Part shown: in pieces, positions 54,400-58,592 of the stretch | Numbering within the stretch: position 1 is the first letter of the stretch | Layout: each line of letters starts with the position of its first letter | Origin: Lactiplantibacillus paraplantarum | Lineage (GTDB): Bacteria > Bacillota > Bacilli > Lactobacillales > Lactobacillaceae | DNA: 64,000 nucleotides | NCBI RefSeq assembly: GCF_003641145.1 | Contig: NZ_CP032744.1 | Span: forward strand, 1 to 64,000 | Direction of reading: 5' to 3' | Notes under the pieces: generated by a model | The model's input: the letters and a program-made list of their open reading frames with translations, nothing else | What the model was told of the DNA's origin: nothing | Database searches by the model: none | Made by a program: the position numbers and the translations under genes

Positions 54400-54768
54400 A
54401 TGACGACTAAACAACGAACGTACAAAATTAAATCCTATGTCAACGCTAGCCATGCGGTGCGGTGGGCAACGGGCTCCGGAAAAAAGCACACGCACACGTG
54501 GGAAATTGTCTGTGAACTGCACACGGTTGATGCGATGGTTGCTTTTTACGATATTGAAAAAAACTTGCATCAAGCGTTGGATGAATTGTCAGGTAAATTT
54601 TTGAACGGCTTACCTGAATTTAAAACCGTTAATCCGACTGTTGAAAATGTCACGGAGTACCTGTTTACCAAGATTGATAAGACATTGCGAGACAATGGGG
54701 CGCAACTCATGCGAATTGAGGTCAGCGACTCGCCAACACGCGCTTATTGTATCAGCGTCACCGAATAA
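54400..54768 (+). CDS. 6-pyruvoyl-tetrahydropterin synthase/QueD-like protein
   Basis: A 122-aa protein of the PTPS/QueD family (SYVNASHAVRW, a KKHTHTWEIV zinc-His motif, PTVENVTEYLFTKIDKTL, VSDSPTRAYCIS). Zinc ligands are likely the His of SAHx and the HTH pair. In the family's C-x3-HGH pattern, the catalytic cysteine position is Ser (GSGKKHTH), so preQ0-type activity is doubtful. ATG follows AGAGGAGG. It is convergent with the fusB-like gene, sharing a terminator. Confidence 0.75.
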   Translation: MTTKQRTYKIKSYVNASHAVRWATGSGKKHTHTWEIVCELHTVDAMVAFYDIEKNLHQALDELSGKFLNGLPEFKTVNPTVENVTEYLFTKIDKTLRDNGAQLMRIEVSDSPTRAYCISVTE

Positions 54769-54780
54769 GATTAATGAAAG

Positions 54781-54830
54781 GGGCCACCAAGAACGGCAGT
54801 TGCAACTGTTCTTGGTGGCCCTGATTTTTA
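54781..54830. terminator. Shared terminator between convergent genes
   Basis: A long stem GGGCCACCAAGAAC pairs with GTTCTTGGTGGCCC and is followed by TTTTT on the plus strand, A-rich on the minus strand. Confidence 0.95.
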
Positions 54831-54835
54831 TTTAA

Positions 54836-55483
54836 TTATCGTTTTGGACGGACAACTGCTAAAAAGTCAGCTAAAGCCTGCGGGTCGGACAATTGTCGAT
54901 TACACTGATTACTGTCACGACAAATGTAATTGCCGTTACGTGTGTAAGGTCCGAGACCAGATGACTTGGTTGTCGACATAAAGAGTGCGACGTTGCCAAT
55001 TGTTTGGCAAATGGCACAGACGCCCTTGACGGTTTGTGGTGCTAAATCTCCCTGGATGCCAATGAGGCGATCATGATCCGGGATTACTAAATACTTTTTC
55101 TGGTTACCACCATCATTCCAACCCAGATAAGTCAATTCGTGTAATGCCAATTGTGACCATACAGGCTGTTTCAACTTTTTGACCTTGCGAAACAACTTGC
55201 TCAGTTGCTTTGTCGTCAAGGATGGAAACGGAATAACTAACGGAATTAGCGTTTCTAGTAGTTGAGGAGCCTTGGCACGGGTTAGCCGGTCCGTTTGCAA
55301 ATGGGACAAGAAATTATCAGCGATTGGATCGTCACTGGGAAGCAGTGGCGTAATCCGCTCGAAGGCTTGCGCACGCACGACGGTTCTAATTTGAAGGTCG
55401 TTTACGGCTAGCTCGGCGCTAATTAATTGATTGACTTGCTGAGTAATATAACTGTATTGATAGGTGGTAATTGTCGGTTGCAT
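54836..55483 (-). CDS. FusB/FusC-family EF-G-binding protein
   Basis: A 215-aa protein similar in layout to staphylococcal FusB/FusC, which bind EF-G and release it from the ribosome in the presence of fusidic acid. The N-terminal helical half (ITTYQYSYITQQVNQLISAELAVNDLQIRTVVRAQAFERITPLLP) is followed by a C-terminal treble-clef zinc finger with four Cys (CAIC and CRDSNQC). ATG at 55483 follows AAAGGAA. Its 5' leader has a leader ORF and hairpins typical of translational attenuation. An in-frame upstream reading runs through the leader but is not the likely gene start. Confidence 0.85.
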   Translation of the reverse strand: MQPTITTYQYSYITQQVNQLISAELAVNDLQIRTVVRAQAFERITPLLPSDDPIADNFLSHLQTDRLTRAKAPQLLETLIPLVIPFPSLTTKQLSKLFRKVKKLKQPVWSQLALHELTYLGWNDGGNQKKYLVIPDHDRLIGIQGDLAPQTVKGVCAICQTIGNVALFMSTTKSSGLGPYTRNGNYICRDSNQCNRQLSDPQALADFLAVVRPKR

Positions 55484-55492
55484 AATATAATT

Positions 55493-55563
55493 CCTTTCAG
55501 ATTCAAACCAGACACTTCTCTGAAAGGTTCTGTCGAAAAGTGTCGCTAACGAGCAGCACTTTT
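55493..55563 (-). promoter_or_regulatory. Translational attenuator of the fusB-like gene
   Basis: Segments, minus strand 5'->3': segment 1 AAAAGTG (55563-55557), segment 2 GACACTTTT (55544-55536), segment 3 CCTTTCAG (55527-55520), segment 4 AAGTGTC (55517-55511) and segment 5 CTGAAAGG (55500-55493, including the fusB Shine-Dalgarno). 1:2 and 3:5 can form together, hiding the Shine-Dalgarno; 2:4 is the alternative and would free it. The arrangement is like erm/fusB leaders. Stability was not computed. Confidence 0.75.
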
Positions 55564-55590
55564 GCGTACAGATAATGATGCCATCATCAT
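55546..55590 (-). CDS. Leader peptide of the fusB-like gene
   Basis: A 14-codon ORF, MMMASLSVRKSAAR, with AAGGAG (55603-55598) 7 nt before its first ATG. The stop TAG lies between segment 1 and segment 2 of the attenuator, so a ribosome stalled near its 3' end would cover segment 1. The frame differs from that of the fusB-like gene. Confidence 0.65.
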   Translation of the reverse strand: MMMASLSVRKSAAR

Positions 55591-55634
55591 TAATCATCTC
55601 CTTATTGCGGCCGATTATAGCCACAGCGATAAAC

Positions 55635-55663
55635 AGTATAACGGATGCTGCTGATTTTGGCAA
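55635..55663 (-). promoter_or_regulatory. Promoter of the fusB-like gene
   Basis: Minus strand: TTGCCA (55663-55658), 17 nt, TATACT (55640-55635). The leader would start near 55628, placing leader ORF and attenuator in the mRNA. Confidence 0.7.
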
Positions 55664-55805: not shown

Positions 55806-55846
55806 TAAAACATCACGCAACTCGTTTGAGTTACGTGATGTTTTTA
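55806..55846. terminator. Terminator of the flavoprotein gene
   Basis: An inverted repeat AACATCACGCAACTC / GAGTTACGTGATGTT with a 4-nt GTTT loop; on the minus strand it ends in a T-rich run. Confidence 0.9.
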
Positions 55847-55871: not shown

Positions 55872-58241
55872 TTAATTCGTGACTGAAGCTTTGACTTGTT
55901 TCAACGCATCTTGAACCGCTTCTTTAATGGCTCGGCTAGATGCAGAGGCACCTGAGACGGCATCAACGCTAGTGGAGTTGGCTGCCACAATCTCTTGTGG
56001 AATTTGATCGATAGCGGTTAAACCAACATCTTCACTTTCATGGTGTTGAATAACATCGACTGCTTGAATTTTATGGTCGTTGTAAGTCACACGCACAATA
56101 ACTTTGCCACCTAGCCCGGCATTAGAACTGCCGAGATATTGATCAGCGGCCAGTTTAACATTGGATGCTGTTTCGCCATCAACAAGATCATTAATTCCGT
56201 TGGCTTCGTTGGCGGTGACAGATTCACTATCTACCTTTGGACGAGCAGCGTTTTCACCAGCTAACTTACCAAAAATCAAACATTCGGCCAAATTACCGCC
56301 GCCTTGATAGCAGTTCGCAACGATACCGCCTAATTCACCAGCGCCGAATAAGTGGGGAATCGGTTCGTCGTTGACATTGAGAATTTGGGCGTTTTCATTA
56401 CGCTGTGGTCCGCCCTGTGTGTTGAGAACGTCATTTGCCGCGGCAATGGCATAGTAAGGGCCACCGTCCAGCTGCCGCATCGTTTGTGGATCACGGCCAA
56501 ATTCAAAATCACGACCCACTTCTGTATAGTGATTAAAATCGGTGACGGTCTGTTGCAGATTGTTAGCAGGAACGTCTAATTTGTCTGCCAATTGTGCAAT
56601 CGTTGGCGCGGAAACGAGCTTGGTCATGAATTTCGGATAAGGTAACTGACCAGCCTGACTTTCTTCTTGTTTGAAGGCATCGTACTGGGTTTGATCAAAG
56701 ATCAAGTAGGGGTGCTGGTTCTTCATTGGAATCAACCAAGAACCGTGCGTATAAACGTGTCCATGCCGGTGCTTAGCATCTTCTTGGAAATAACGTGTCC
56801 CGTCGTCAGCGATAACGAAAATACTGCCGTTCTTCAGTAATGGCCAATGCTCAATTTGCCGGCCCCGCTCGTTGGCGTCTTCTTTGAAGGTGATTCCAGG
56901 TAAGATACCGTGAGATTCATAATTGGTCATGTGCCACATTTTGGCATCAACTTCTTGGGCCATTTTGACGCCATCACCACGGTTATAAAGGGTGCCCAAT
57001 GGGGTCAAGTGATTGCTATGAAGGTAAGTTTGTGTTAACTCAGGATTATTTTCAAAGCCCCCCATTGCAAGGACGACGCCATTGTTGGCGTGAATGTTAA
57101 GTAAGCGTTCACCGCGTTTGATCTGGACACCTTGAATGATTTTGGTGCTGGGGTCTTGAATCAAGTGTTGTGCTCGTGAGTCTAACCAGACGTCAATATT
57201 GTCGGCCCGTTCGAGCACTTTTTGCCGGAGGAGTTTCCATAATGCGGCGTCTTTATCGCGTTTATGAACGAGGGCGAAATCGACAGTCTCGCTCCCAGCT
57301 AATTCTGGATATTCCGCCATGGTTTTCTTGATGGCAACAGCATCACCAGGTTTAATGTCATGTTTCCAACTGACTGCTTTAATTCCTAGGTACTTTTCAA
57401 AGTATGTTGGAATTTTGTTCATGCCGCTTAAATAAGCGTTGAGCGTCTTAGTAGGAGTACTAAAGGGTGCGCCCAGTGCTTGATAATAAGCGGTTAGTTT
57501 ATCTAGGCTTTCACCCGTAACGACATGTTGGGCAGAGTAGCGGGTGTTGCCGCCTTCACGGCCAAATGGCGCCGCATCCACTAGTAGAACTTTTGCGCCA
57601 TTATCAGCGGCAAAGCGAGCTGCCGATGCACCCGCACCACCAAAGCCTAAAACGATAACGTCGTAATTACCGTGCCAGTTCACATTGAGCGCGGGGGTGC
57701 CGTTGAGTGCTTTAACGTATTTTTCAAAATTATCGAAGCACCGTTCCAAGAATTTGATAGAAGGGGCATCGACCATTTGACCATTCTGATCAAAGGCTTT
57801 AGCAGCGTAGCTTAACATGTATTCATTGCCGGGAAGTACCTGAGCATCAACTCCGGGCGCATTGAGAATATTGCGCAAGTCACCTTGAGCACGGCATGTC
57901 CCCTGTACGCCAAGGGAAGTACCAACTAACATGACTGGTTTATTAGCAAACGGATGGAGTTGGTATGAGAGCCATTCGATGACGTTCTTGAGTGCGGCTG
58001 GAATGGCATGATCGTATTCGGGTACACCAATAATAACCCCGTCTGCCTGGCTAATTTTATCATTTAAGATTTGAACGGTGGCTGGAATATCATCTTGATC
58101 AGGCTCATTGAATAGTGGGATTCCGGTAATCTCATTGACGTCAATCGTAGCCCGCTGACTAAAGTGGTGATTCATAAATTGTAATAGTTCACGATTGTAA
58201 GATTGTTGTGCAGTCGTACCAATCAAGGCGACATATTTCAT
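55872..58241 (-). CDS. Fumarate reductase-type flavoprotein with FMN reductase and FMN-binding domains
   Basis: A 789-aa cytoplasmic protein of three flavin domains: NADPH-dependent FMN-reductase fold (about 1-175; IGVPEYDHAIPAALKNVIEWLS), FAD-binding fumarate-reductase/succinate-dehydrogenase domain (about 190-665; VIVLGFGGAGASAARFAADNGAKVLLVDAAPFGREGGNTRYSAQHVV, GAGELGGIVANCYQGGGNLAECLIFG), and a C-terminal FMN_bind domain with the covalent-FMN motif DAVSGAS. It can thus move electrons from NAD(P)H to an enoate acceptor alone. The natural acceptor (fumarate, urocanate or a cinnamate) is unknown. The Met at 58241 is favoured by AAAGGAA spacing over one 3 codons upstream. Confidence 0.9.
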   Translation of the reverse strand: MKYVALIGTTAQQSYNRELLQFMNHHFSQRATIDVNEITGIPLFNEPDQDDIPATVQILNDKISQADGVIIGVPEYDHAIPAALKNVIEWLSYQLHPFANKPVMLVGTSLGVQGTCRAQGDLRNILNAPGVDAQVLPGNEYMLSYAAKAFDQNGQMVDAPSIKFLERCFDNFEKYVKALNGTPALNVNWHGNYDVIVLGFGGAGASAARFAADNGAKVLLVDAAPFGREGGNTRYSAQHVVTGESLDKLTAYYQALGAPFSTPTKTLNAYLSGMNKIPTYFEKYLGIKAVSWKHDIKPGDAVAIKKTMAEYPELAGSETVDFALVHKRDKDAALWKLLRQKVLERADNIDVWLDSRAQHLIQDPSTKIIQGVQIKRGERLLNIHANNGVVLAMGGFENNPELTQTYLHSNHLTPLGTLYNRGDGVKMAQEVDAKMWHMTNYESHGILPGITFKEDANERGRQIEHWPLLKNGSIFVIADDGTRYFQEDAKHRHGHVYTHGSWLIPMKNQHPYLIFDQTQYDAFKQEESQAGQLPYPKFMTKLVSAPTIAQLADKLDVPANNLQQTVTDFNHYTEVGRDFEFGRDPQTMRQLDGGPYYAIAAANDVLNTQGGPQRNENAQILNVNDEPIPHLFGAGELGGIVANCYQGGGNLAECLIFGKLAGENAARPKVDSESVTANEANGINDLVDGETASNVKLAADQYLGSSNAGLGGKVIVRVTYNDHKIQAVDVIQHHESEDVGLTAIDQIPQEIVAANSTSVDAVSGASASSRAIKEAVQDALKQVKASVTN

Positions 58242-58592
58242 AATCAACATTCCTTTATTATTTTTTAGTTTGATAAGTACATCGATTGTTTACGCTTTCA
58301 ATATAATTAATCGTATAGAAAAAACAACCTTTAATTTTGACCAGTTTCGCAAAACACTATTGTGACAACGATAACAAGCGAAAGTTGTTTTATTCGATCA
58401 ACGATTATTAAGTAGGAACTAAGCGAGCAGCAAACTTTATTTTAGTTTTTTATAAATTATATTTATAAAAAGGAAGCCAGTGATTGTCGTTGATTAAAAT
58501 AAAATCTAATATATGAACAAAAGAGACGTCGTCTTAAGCCCTAGTACAGCTGATTTCATTACATTCACGGGTTAAGTATTGCTAAATTTTGA

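Follow-up and report, generated by a model that had tools for sequence, protein, structure and literature searches.

Macrolide attenuators of the erm type, such as that of ermC, consist of a leader ORF, alternative helices and a Shine-Dalgarno sequence (SD) that is released by a stalled ribosome. The switch proposed here shares these elements with them, whereas the gene and the drug are different and arrest on the erm leaders takes place at peptide motifs specific to the drug. For fusB of the Staphylococcus aureus plasmid pUB101, two papers report translational attenuation with ribosomes stalled on the leader (PMC12008383, PMC3352095), and a third gives an aj1-leader peptide-fusB structure for staphylococcal islands (PMC12561750). 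PMC3352095 also aligns proteins of L. plantarum, enterococci and Listeria as homologues for which there is evidence either of a role in fusidic acid resistance or of inherent resistance of the species to this drug. In a 2025 review, the regulation of FusB homologues is called unknown (PMC12493156). A literature survey of titles and the beginnings of abstracts, with most subscription papers outside its coverage, returned no such leaders outside staphylococcal fusB. Attenuation of staphylococcal fusB is already known and the new element is the wide distribution of the leaders. For many of the chromosomal homologues the comparison suggests an answer that can be tested, namely leader-peptide attenuation that travels with the gene.

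The window, a stretch of 64,000 nucleotides from Lactiplantibacillus paraplantarum (NZ_CP032744.1, positions 1 to 64,000), carries a FusB-type gene, and the leader of this gene is probably a translational attenuator like that of staphylococcal fusB, located here on the chromosome. The elements, from the promoter to the gene, are as follows.

55663-55635, minus strand: promoter, TTGCCA (-35), 17 nt, TATACT (-10), matching 10 of 12 consensus positions
55606-55625, minus strand: hairpin at the 5' end of the transcript (TGTGGCTATAATCGGCCGCA), from predictions in 36 of 37 relatives
55603-55598, minus strand: SD of the leader ORF, AAGGAG, from the sequence
55590-55546, minus strand: leader ORF of 14 codons (MMMASLSVRKSAAR) with stop codon TAG, from the sequence, with related leaders in the 37 aligned sequences
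55573-55592, minus strand: hairpin 0, enclosing the start codon of the leader (TAATGATG/CATCATTA), from the fold and a synonymous-codon null
55563-55557, minus strand: segment 1, AAAAGTG, within the leader ORF, partner of segment 2, from the fold and the alignment
55544-55536, minus strand: segment 2, GACACTTTT, partner of segment 1 (off) or segment 4 (on), from the fold and the alignment
55527-55520, minus strand: segment 3, CCTTTCAG, anti-SD, partner of segment 5, from the fold and the alignment
55517-55511, minus strand: segment 4, AAGTGTC, possible partner of segment 2 once segment 1 is occupied, from the SD profile and the alignment
55500-55493, minus strand: segment 5, CTGAAAGG, overlapping the fusB SD, partner of segment 3, from the fold and the alignment
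55483, minus strand: fusB start codon ATG, from the sequence
54836-55483, minus strand: FusB-type EF-G-binding protein of 215 aa, from Pfam and the match to S. aureus FusB/Far1

Protein searches with the translation of 54836-55480, the first Met omitted, showed that both domains of the window protein pass the curated cut-offs of the FusB/FusC type (Pfam PF07299 and PF16571; EF-G-binding_N 85.9 bits, FBP_C 35.6 bits). The match to S. aureus FusB/Far1 (E 1.7e-36) spans query residues 4-207. Both cysteines of VKGVCAIC and both of YICRDSNQC, the residues of the putative zinc site, align with cysteines of FusB. None of the NCBIfam alleles fusB, fusC, fusD and fusF reached its exception-level cut-off, the best being fusF with 160.2 bits against 435. 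The closest genome, G015, shows a protein identity of 97%. Next to the gene are a long ORF on the same strand (55872-58250) and, on the plus strand, a convergent ORF (54400-54768). Terminator-like hairpins lie after fusB (54783-54797, from the scan) and before its promoter (55808-55841, by eye), which suggests that fusB is transcribed alone.

As the sequence-only reading had claimed, a promoter and a 14-codon leader ORF with its SD are present on the minus strand upstream of fusB. The promoter is the top minus-strand match in a promoter scan, which returned 5 sites compared with 2.6 +/- 1.8 in shuffled sequences; taken alone, the scan is thus weak evidence. Among 37 relatives, counted as the best of three spacings and without a null, a -10 element of the sought pattern occurs in all 37 and a TTG-type -35 element at 17-18 nt in 34. 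Transcription is predicted to start near 55628. A comparison with Rfam gave four matches (E 0.22 to 5), each with less than half of its gathering score, and assignment of the leader to a known RNA family was dropped on these scores.

Folding of the leader RNA gave a minimum energy of -43.3 kcal/mol (z -3.26), and none of 200 shuffled sequences was equally stable. The minimum-energy structure contains helices 1:2 and 3:5, and the sequence has the five segments with two exclusive pairings that were proposed earlier. Helix 1:2 has in addition an outer part, UCUGU/ACAGA, and exceeds the length first given for it. The strong hairpin directly before fusB could also be read as a terminator, in which case the leader would act by transcription attenuation through helix 3:5. 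However, a U run is absent after 3:5, segment 5 overlaps the fusB SD, and a terminator scan found no terminator-like site on the minus strand in the interval between the leader and fusB. Transcription attenuation, which we rate as highly improbable, was dropped on the absence of such a site.

Accessibility of the fusB SD was computed for a ribosome at each leader codon, with the RNA folded only beyond the front edge of the ribosome (first P-site base + 16). Without a ribosome, opening of the SD costs 5.6 kcal/mol and its mean unpaired probability is 0.16, in agreement with the earlier proposal that helix 3:5 hides it. The opening cost is 3.4 kcal/mol with the P site at codon 4, falls to 1.2-2.2 kcal/mol at codons 5-12 and returns to 4.2-4.4 kcal/mol at codons 13-15. 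Similarly, the unpaired probability is 0.17-0.19 at codons 1-4, 0.31 at codon 5, 0.56-0.66 at codons 6-11, 0.30 at codon 12 and 0.17 at codons 13-15. The comparison of free and covered leaders that had been suggested thus shows low SD access in the free RNA and raised access with a ribosome at codons 6-11. Helix 2:4 had been expected to free the SD; access indeed rises at codons 6-11, but at 0.56-0.66 the computed stalled state frees the SD only in part.

The contrast in opening cost is 2.9 kcal/mol, a value matched by none of 60 dinucleotide shuffles. When the same geometry was applied to 203 mechanically called ORFs (150 aa or longer, ATG start, SD of 5 or more) from the window and from 400 kb of its genome, the window gene ranked second, exceeded by one of the 202 others. 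That ORF lies in L273, on the minus strand, at offset 13161 on the reverse complement. The locus as a whole has a short leader ORF with an SD upstream of fusB on the same predicted transcript, a computed default fold that shuts the downstream SD, and an SD opened in the computation by a ribosome inside the leader, not at its end.

In the proposed mechanism, an mRNA starting near 55628 would carry the leader ORF and fusB. In the default state, pairing of segment 1 with segment 2 and of segment 3 with segment 5 would shut the fusB SD, and uninterrupted translation of the leader would keep or restore this state. A ribosome held with leader codons ~6-11 in its P site, for example by EF-G trapped by fusidic acid as the putative inducer, would melt helix 1:2 while leaving segment 2 uncovered. 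Segment 2 could then pair with segment 4, breaking helix 3:5 and opening the fusB SD, so that FusB would be made and EF-G released. We infer the stalling at codons ~6-11, fusidic acid as inducer and an effect on the level of FusB. What the analysis shows is the presence of the elements, their linkage to fusB and the computed closed-open-closed profile. If the mechanism is true, such bacteria would have an inducible, not a constant, tolerance of fusidic acid, and their leader could serve as a natural reporter of EF-G trapping.

The same switch could serve as a more general sensor, opened by any slow ribosome at codons 6-11, whether from amino-acid shortage or from other ribosome drugs, with fusidic acid as one cue. 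The computed opening depends on the position of the ribosome alone and extends over a broad codon range, as would be expected of such a sensor, and the E. coli topAI uORF is reported to sense several classes of ribosome drugs (PMC12121999). However, the leaders show by eye no shared run of one amino acid, and the controlled gene is specific for EF-G. We regard this broader role as a real possibility, albeit a tentative one.

The pUB101 fusB leader, treated by the same computation, resembles that of the window in having a leader ORF with a strong SD, a predicted hairpin at the start codon and an SD that opens when the ribosome stands at codons 5-10. The products of the two genes belong to the same family. 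In contrast, the sequences of the leaders are unlike, and the pUB101 leader has 20 codons as read here and is plasmid-borne, compared with 14 codons on the chromosome in the window. The pUB101 profile is weaker, being matched by 5 of 60 shuffles, because the SD reopens with the ribosome at the last codons.

Comparisons within the genus showed that fusB is present in 13 of 21 sampled genomes, the window's own included, and that a covariance model of the leader matches in the same 13. The gene and the leader are both absent from the other 8 genomes, a pattern of gain or loss of the unit within the genus. In the family sample, searched with stricter filters by which weak matches could be lost, the model matched in 32 of 397 genomes, from three of 40 genera. 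All 30 of these 32 matches that were examined lie beside a fusB homologue. Together, the anatomy of the leader, its exclusive pairings, the computed stall window and this co-occurrence with the gene support translational attenuation.

The alignment of 37 leaders covers Lactiplantibacillus, Levilactobacillus, Secundilactobacillus oryzae and close relatives, some of them uncultured. Outside it stand Furfurilactobacillus L050, which has a different leader sequence and whose profile contrast was matched by none of 60 shuffles, and the fusB homologue of S. kimchicus (L052/L174), upstream of which no leader was found. All pairs of helices 3:5 and 2:4 are standard or wobble in 37 of 37 leaders, and of the seven pairs of helix 1:2 three are mismatched, in 2, 1 and 1 sequences. 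Of the conservation and covariation that the sequence-only reading had asked for, the first was found and the second was not: RNAalifold on the 37 leaders gave 26 pairs, with no two-sided pair-keeping change in the switching helices. The switch is too conserved among these leaders to covary, and here it is thus conservation that supports the helices, without covariation.

The clearest structural signal among the Lactobacillaceae leaders is the 5' hairpin after the promoter, whose form is kept while its letters change. The 36 sequences in which it is predicted comprise 28 different stem-loop sequences. For 29 of the 37, no more than 10 of 200 shuffles fold better, a level that the other 8 do not reach. 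This hairpin may protect the end of the mRNA. Conserved hairpins outside the switch would also suit an RNA element to which a protein, perhaps FusB itself, binds and beside which the small ORF would be incidental; PMC3352095 raises nucleic-acid binding by FusB as possibly regulatory. However, the leader ORF and its SD recur in several families with other sequences, and the SD profile follows the position of the ribosome inside the leader ORF. Regulation by a bound protein is considered very unlikely.

Searches across the Lactobacillales matched the Pfam domain in 114 of 395 genomes, in 111 of them above the cut-off. Upstream regions were examined for 108 matches, leaving out G274, which lies near a contig end, and the five weakest. 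In the f3 group (Enterococcaceae by inference), mechanical criteria gave a leader ORF upstream of 46 of 54 loci. The one at L153 was subsequently taken to be spurious, and among the 8 leaderless f3 loci 3 have a leader by eye. Such an ORF was likewise found in 13 of 14 f9 loci, Vagococcus among them, leaving one without, and in 5 of 7 f1 loci, with a leader seen by eye in one of the other two. In the f8 group, 15 of 33 loci have a leader ORF, all 15 resembling that of Listeria L064, and 18 have none. Examples of leader peptides outside the Lactobacillaceae are MQNVSYLKESGIFR, MILSSLSRVQGFNIN and MQTKLHCSRLSNNGFRIV. Overall, the mechanical criteria gave no leader in 36 of 167 loci, among which at least L041/L119, L066, L135, L142 and L146 have one by eye. 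Leaders were set by hand where the criteria had chosen wrong ORFs (L006, L008, L023, L043) or missed one (L041), and four peptides judged spurious, including L153, were dropped.

The resulting 79 distinct leaders were reduced to 45 non-redundant ones by 60% identity at equal length, with the window and pUB101 included. For 29 of these, no more than 3 of 60 shuffles reached the closed-open-closed contrast, and for 25 of the 29 none did; the combined p of 1e-18 over the 45 leaders assumes an independence that the leaders lack. The other 16, for example L046, L049, L126, L131 and L141, do not beat their shuffles. Together with the one ORF of 202 that scores higher than the window, these failures are what might be expected from chance folding before an ordinary constitutive gene. 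Against this stand the absence of any equal among the 60 profile shuffles and the 200 fold shuffles of the window leader and the conservation of the leader together with the gene, and chance folding is judged extremely improbable.

At the class level, the fusF model matched in 158 of 398 genomes at E 1e-10, none of them above the cut-off. The f17 loci score 346-385 bits to fusF and are staphylococcal by inference; by eye, 7 of the 15 have leaders such as MLQTNATLLIQSSRLN and 8 have none. Profiles were computed for seven further leaders, six of the seven f17 leaders and L222 (f11), and 5 of the 7 were matched by none of 60 shuffles. In four of these five (L209, L210, L213 and L214, all f17), the SD opens at codon 6 and later closes, and L222 has the same profile. 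L212 (f17) opens at codons 6-9 and reopens at the end, with shuffles matching in 38 of 60, and in L208 (f17) the SD is already open without a ribosome, with shuffles matching in 15 of 60. Inspection by eye showed no such leader in the 10 f30 loci or in another 20 loci at the class level; one of these 20, L250, gave no gene start. Structural support thus comes from unlike leader sequences with a similar computed profile, in Enterococcus, Vagococcus, Listeria and some staphylococcal relatives. The sequences suggest that the same kind of switch precedes many, not all, FusB-type genes in other bacteria.

Many of the 45 leaders, that of pUB101 fusB included, are predicted to form a hairpin around their start codon. 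Compared with synonymous-codon variants, hairpin 0 gave a combined p of 1.6e-4 over the 45 leaders; singly, only 4 of the 45 fall in the lowest 5% and several fold worse than the null. In 31 leaders chosen from 49, a common leader-peptide motif scores higher than in any of the 60 shuffled sets. The motif is taken as a lead only, because of its overlap with the 3' arm of hairpin 0, by which it is partly explained, and because the leaders share ancestry. Many FusB-type genes of Lactobacillales and staphylococci might share a sensor of EF-G function, consisting of a short leader peptide with the weak motif (~V/A-S-S/Y-L-K/I, from residues 3-9), the start-codon hairpin and an opening at codons ~5-12. 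The EF-G-releasing factor would then be called for by slowed translocation as such, whether or not fusidic acid is present. We consider this extension unlikely.

The open frame of fusB in the window continues upstream across the leader to a TTG at 55663 (275 aa), and automatic start calls may therefore swallow the leader. In L066, a plasmid record of E. raffinosus, at ~482-720, the annotated EF-G-binding CDS begins at 482, ~60 codons ahead of its likely start, and overruns an apparent leader ORF in another frame, MIKSSCIVRSKKLIMCH, seen by eye after AAGGAGGAGAT. The leader region of L066 seems to have been annotated as an N-terminal extension.
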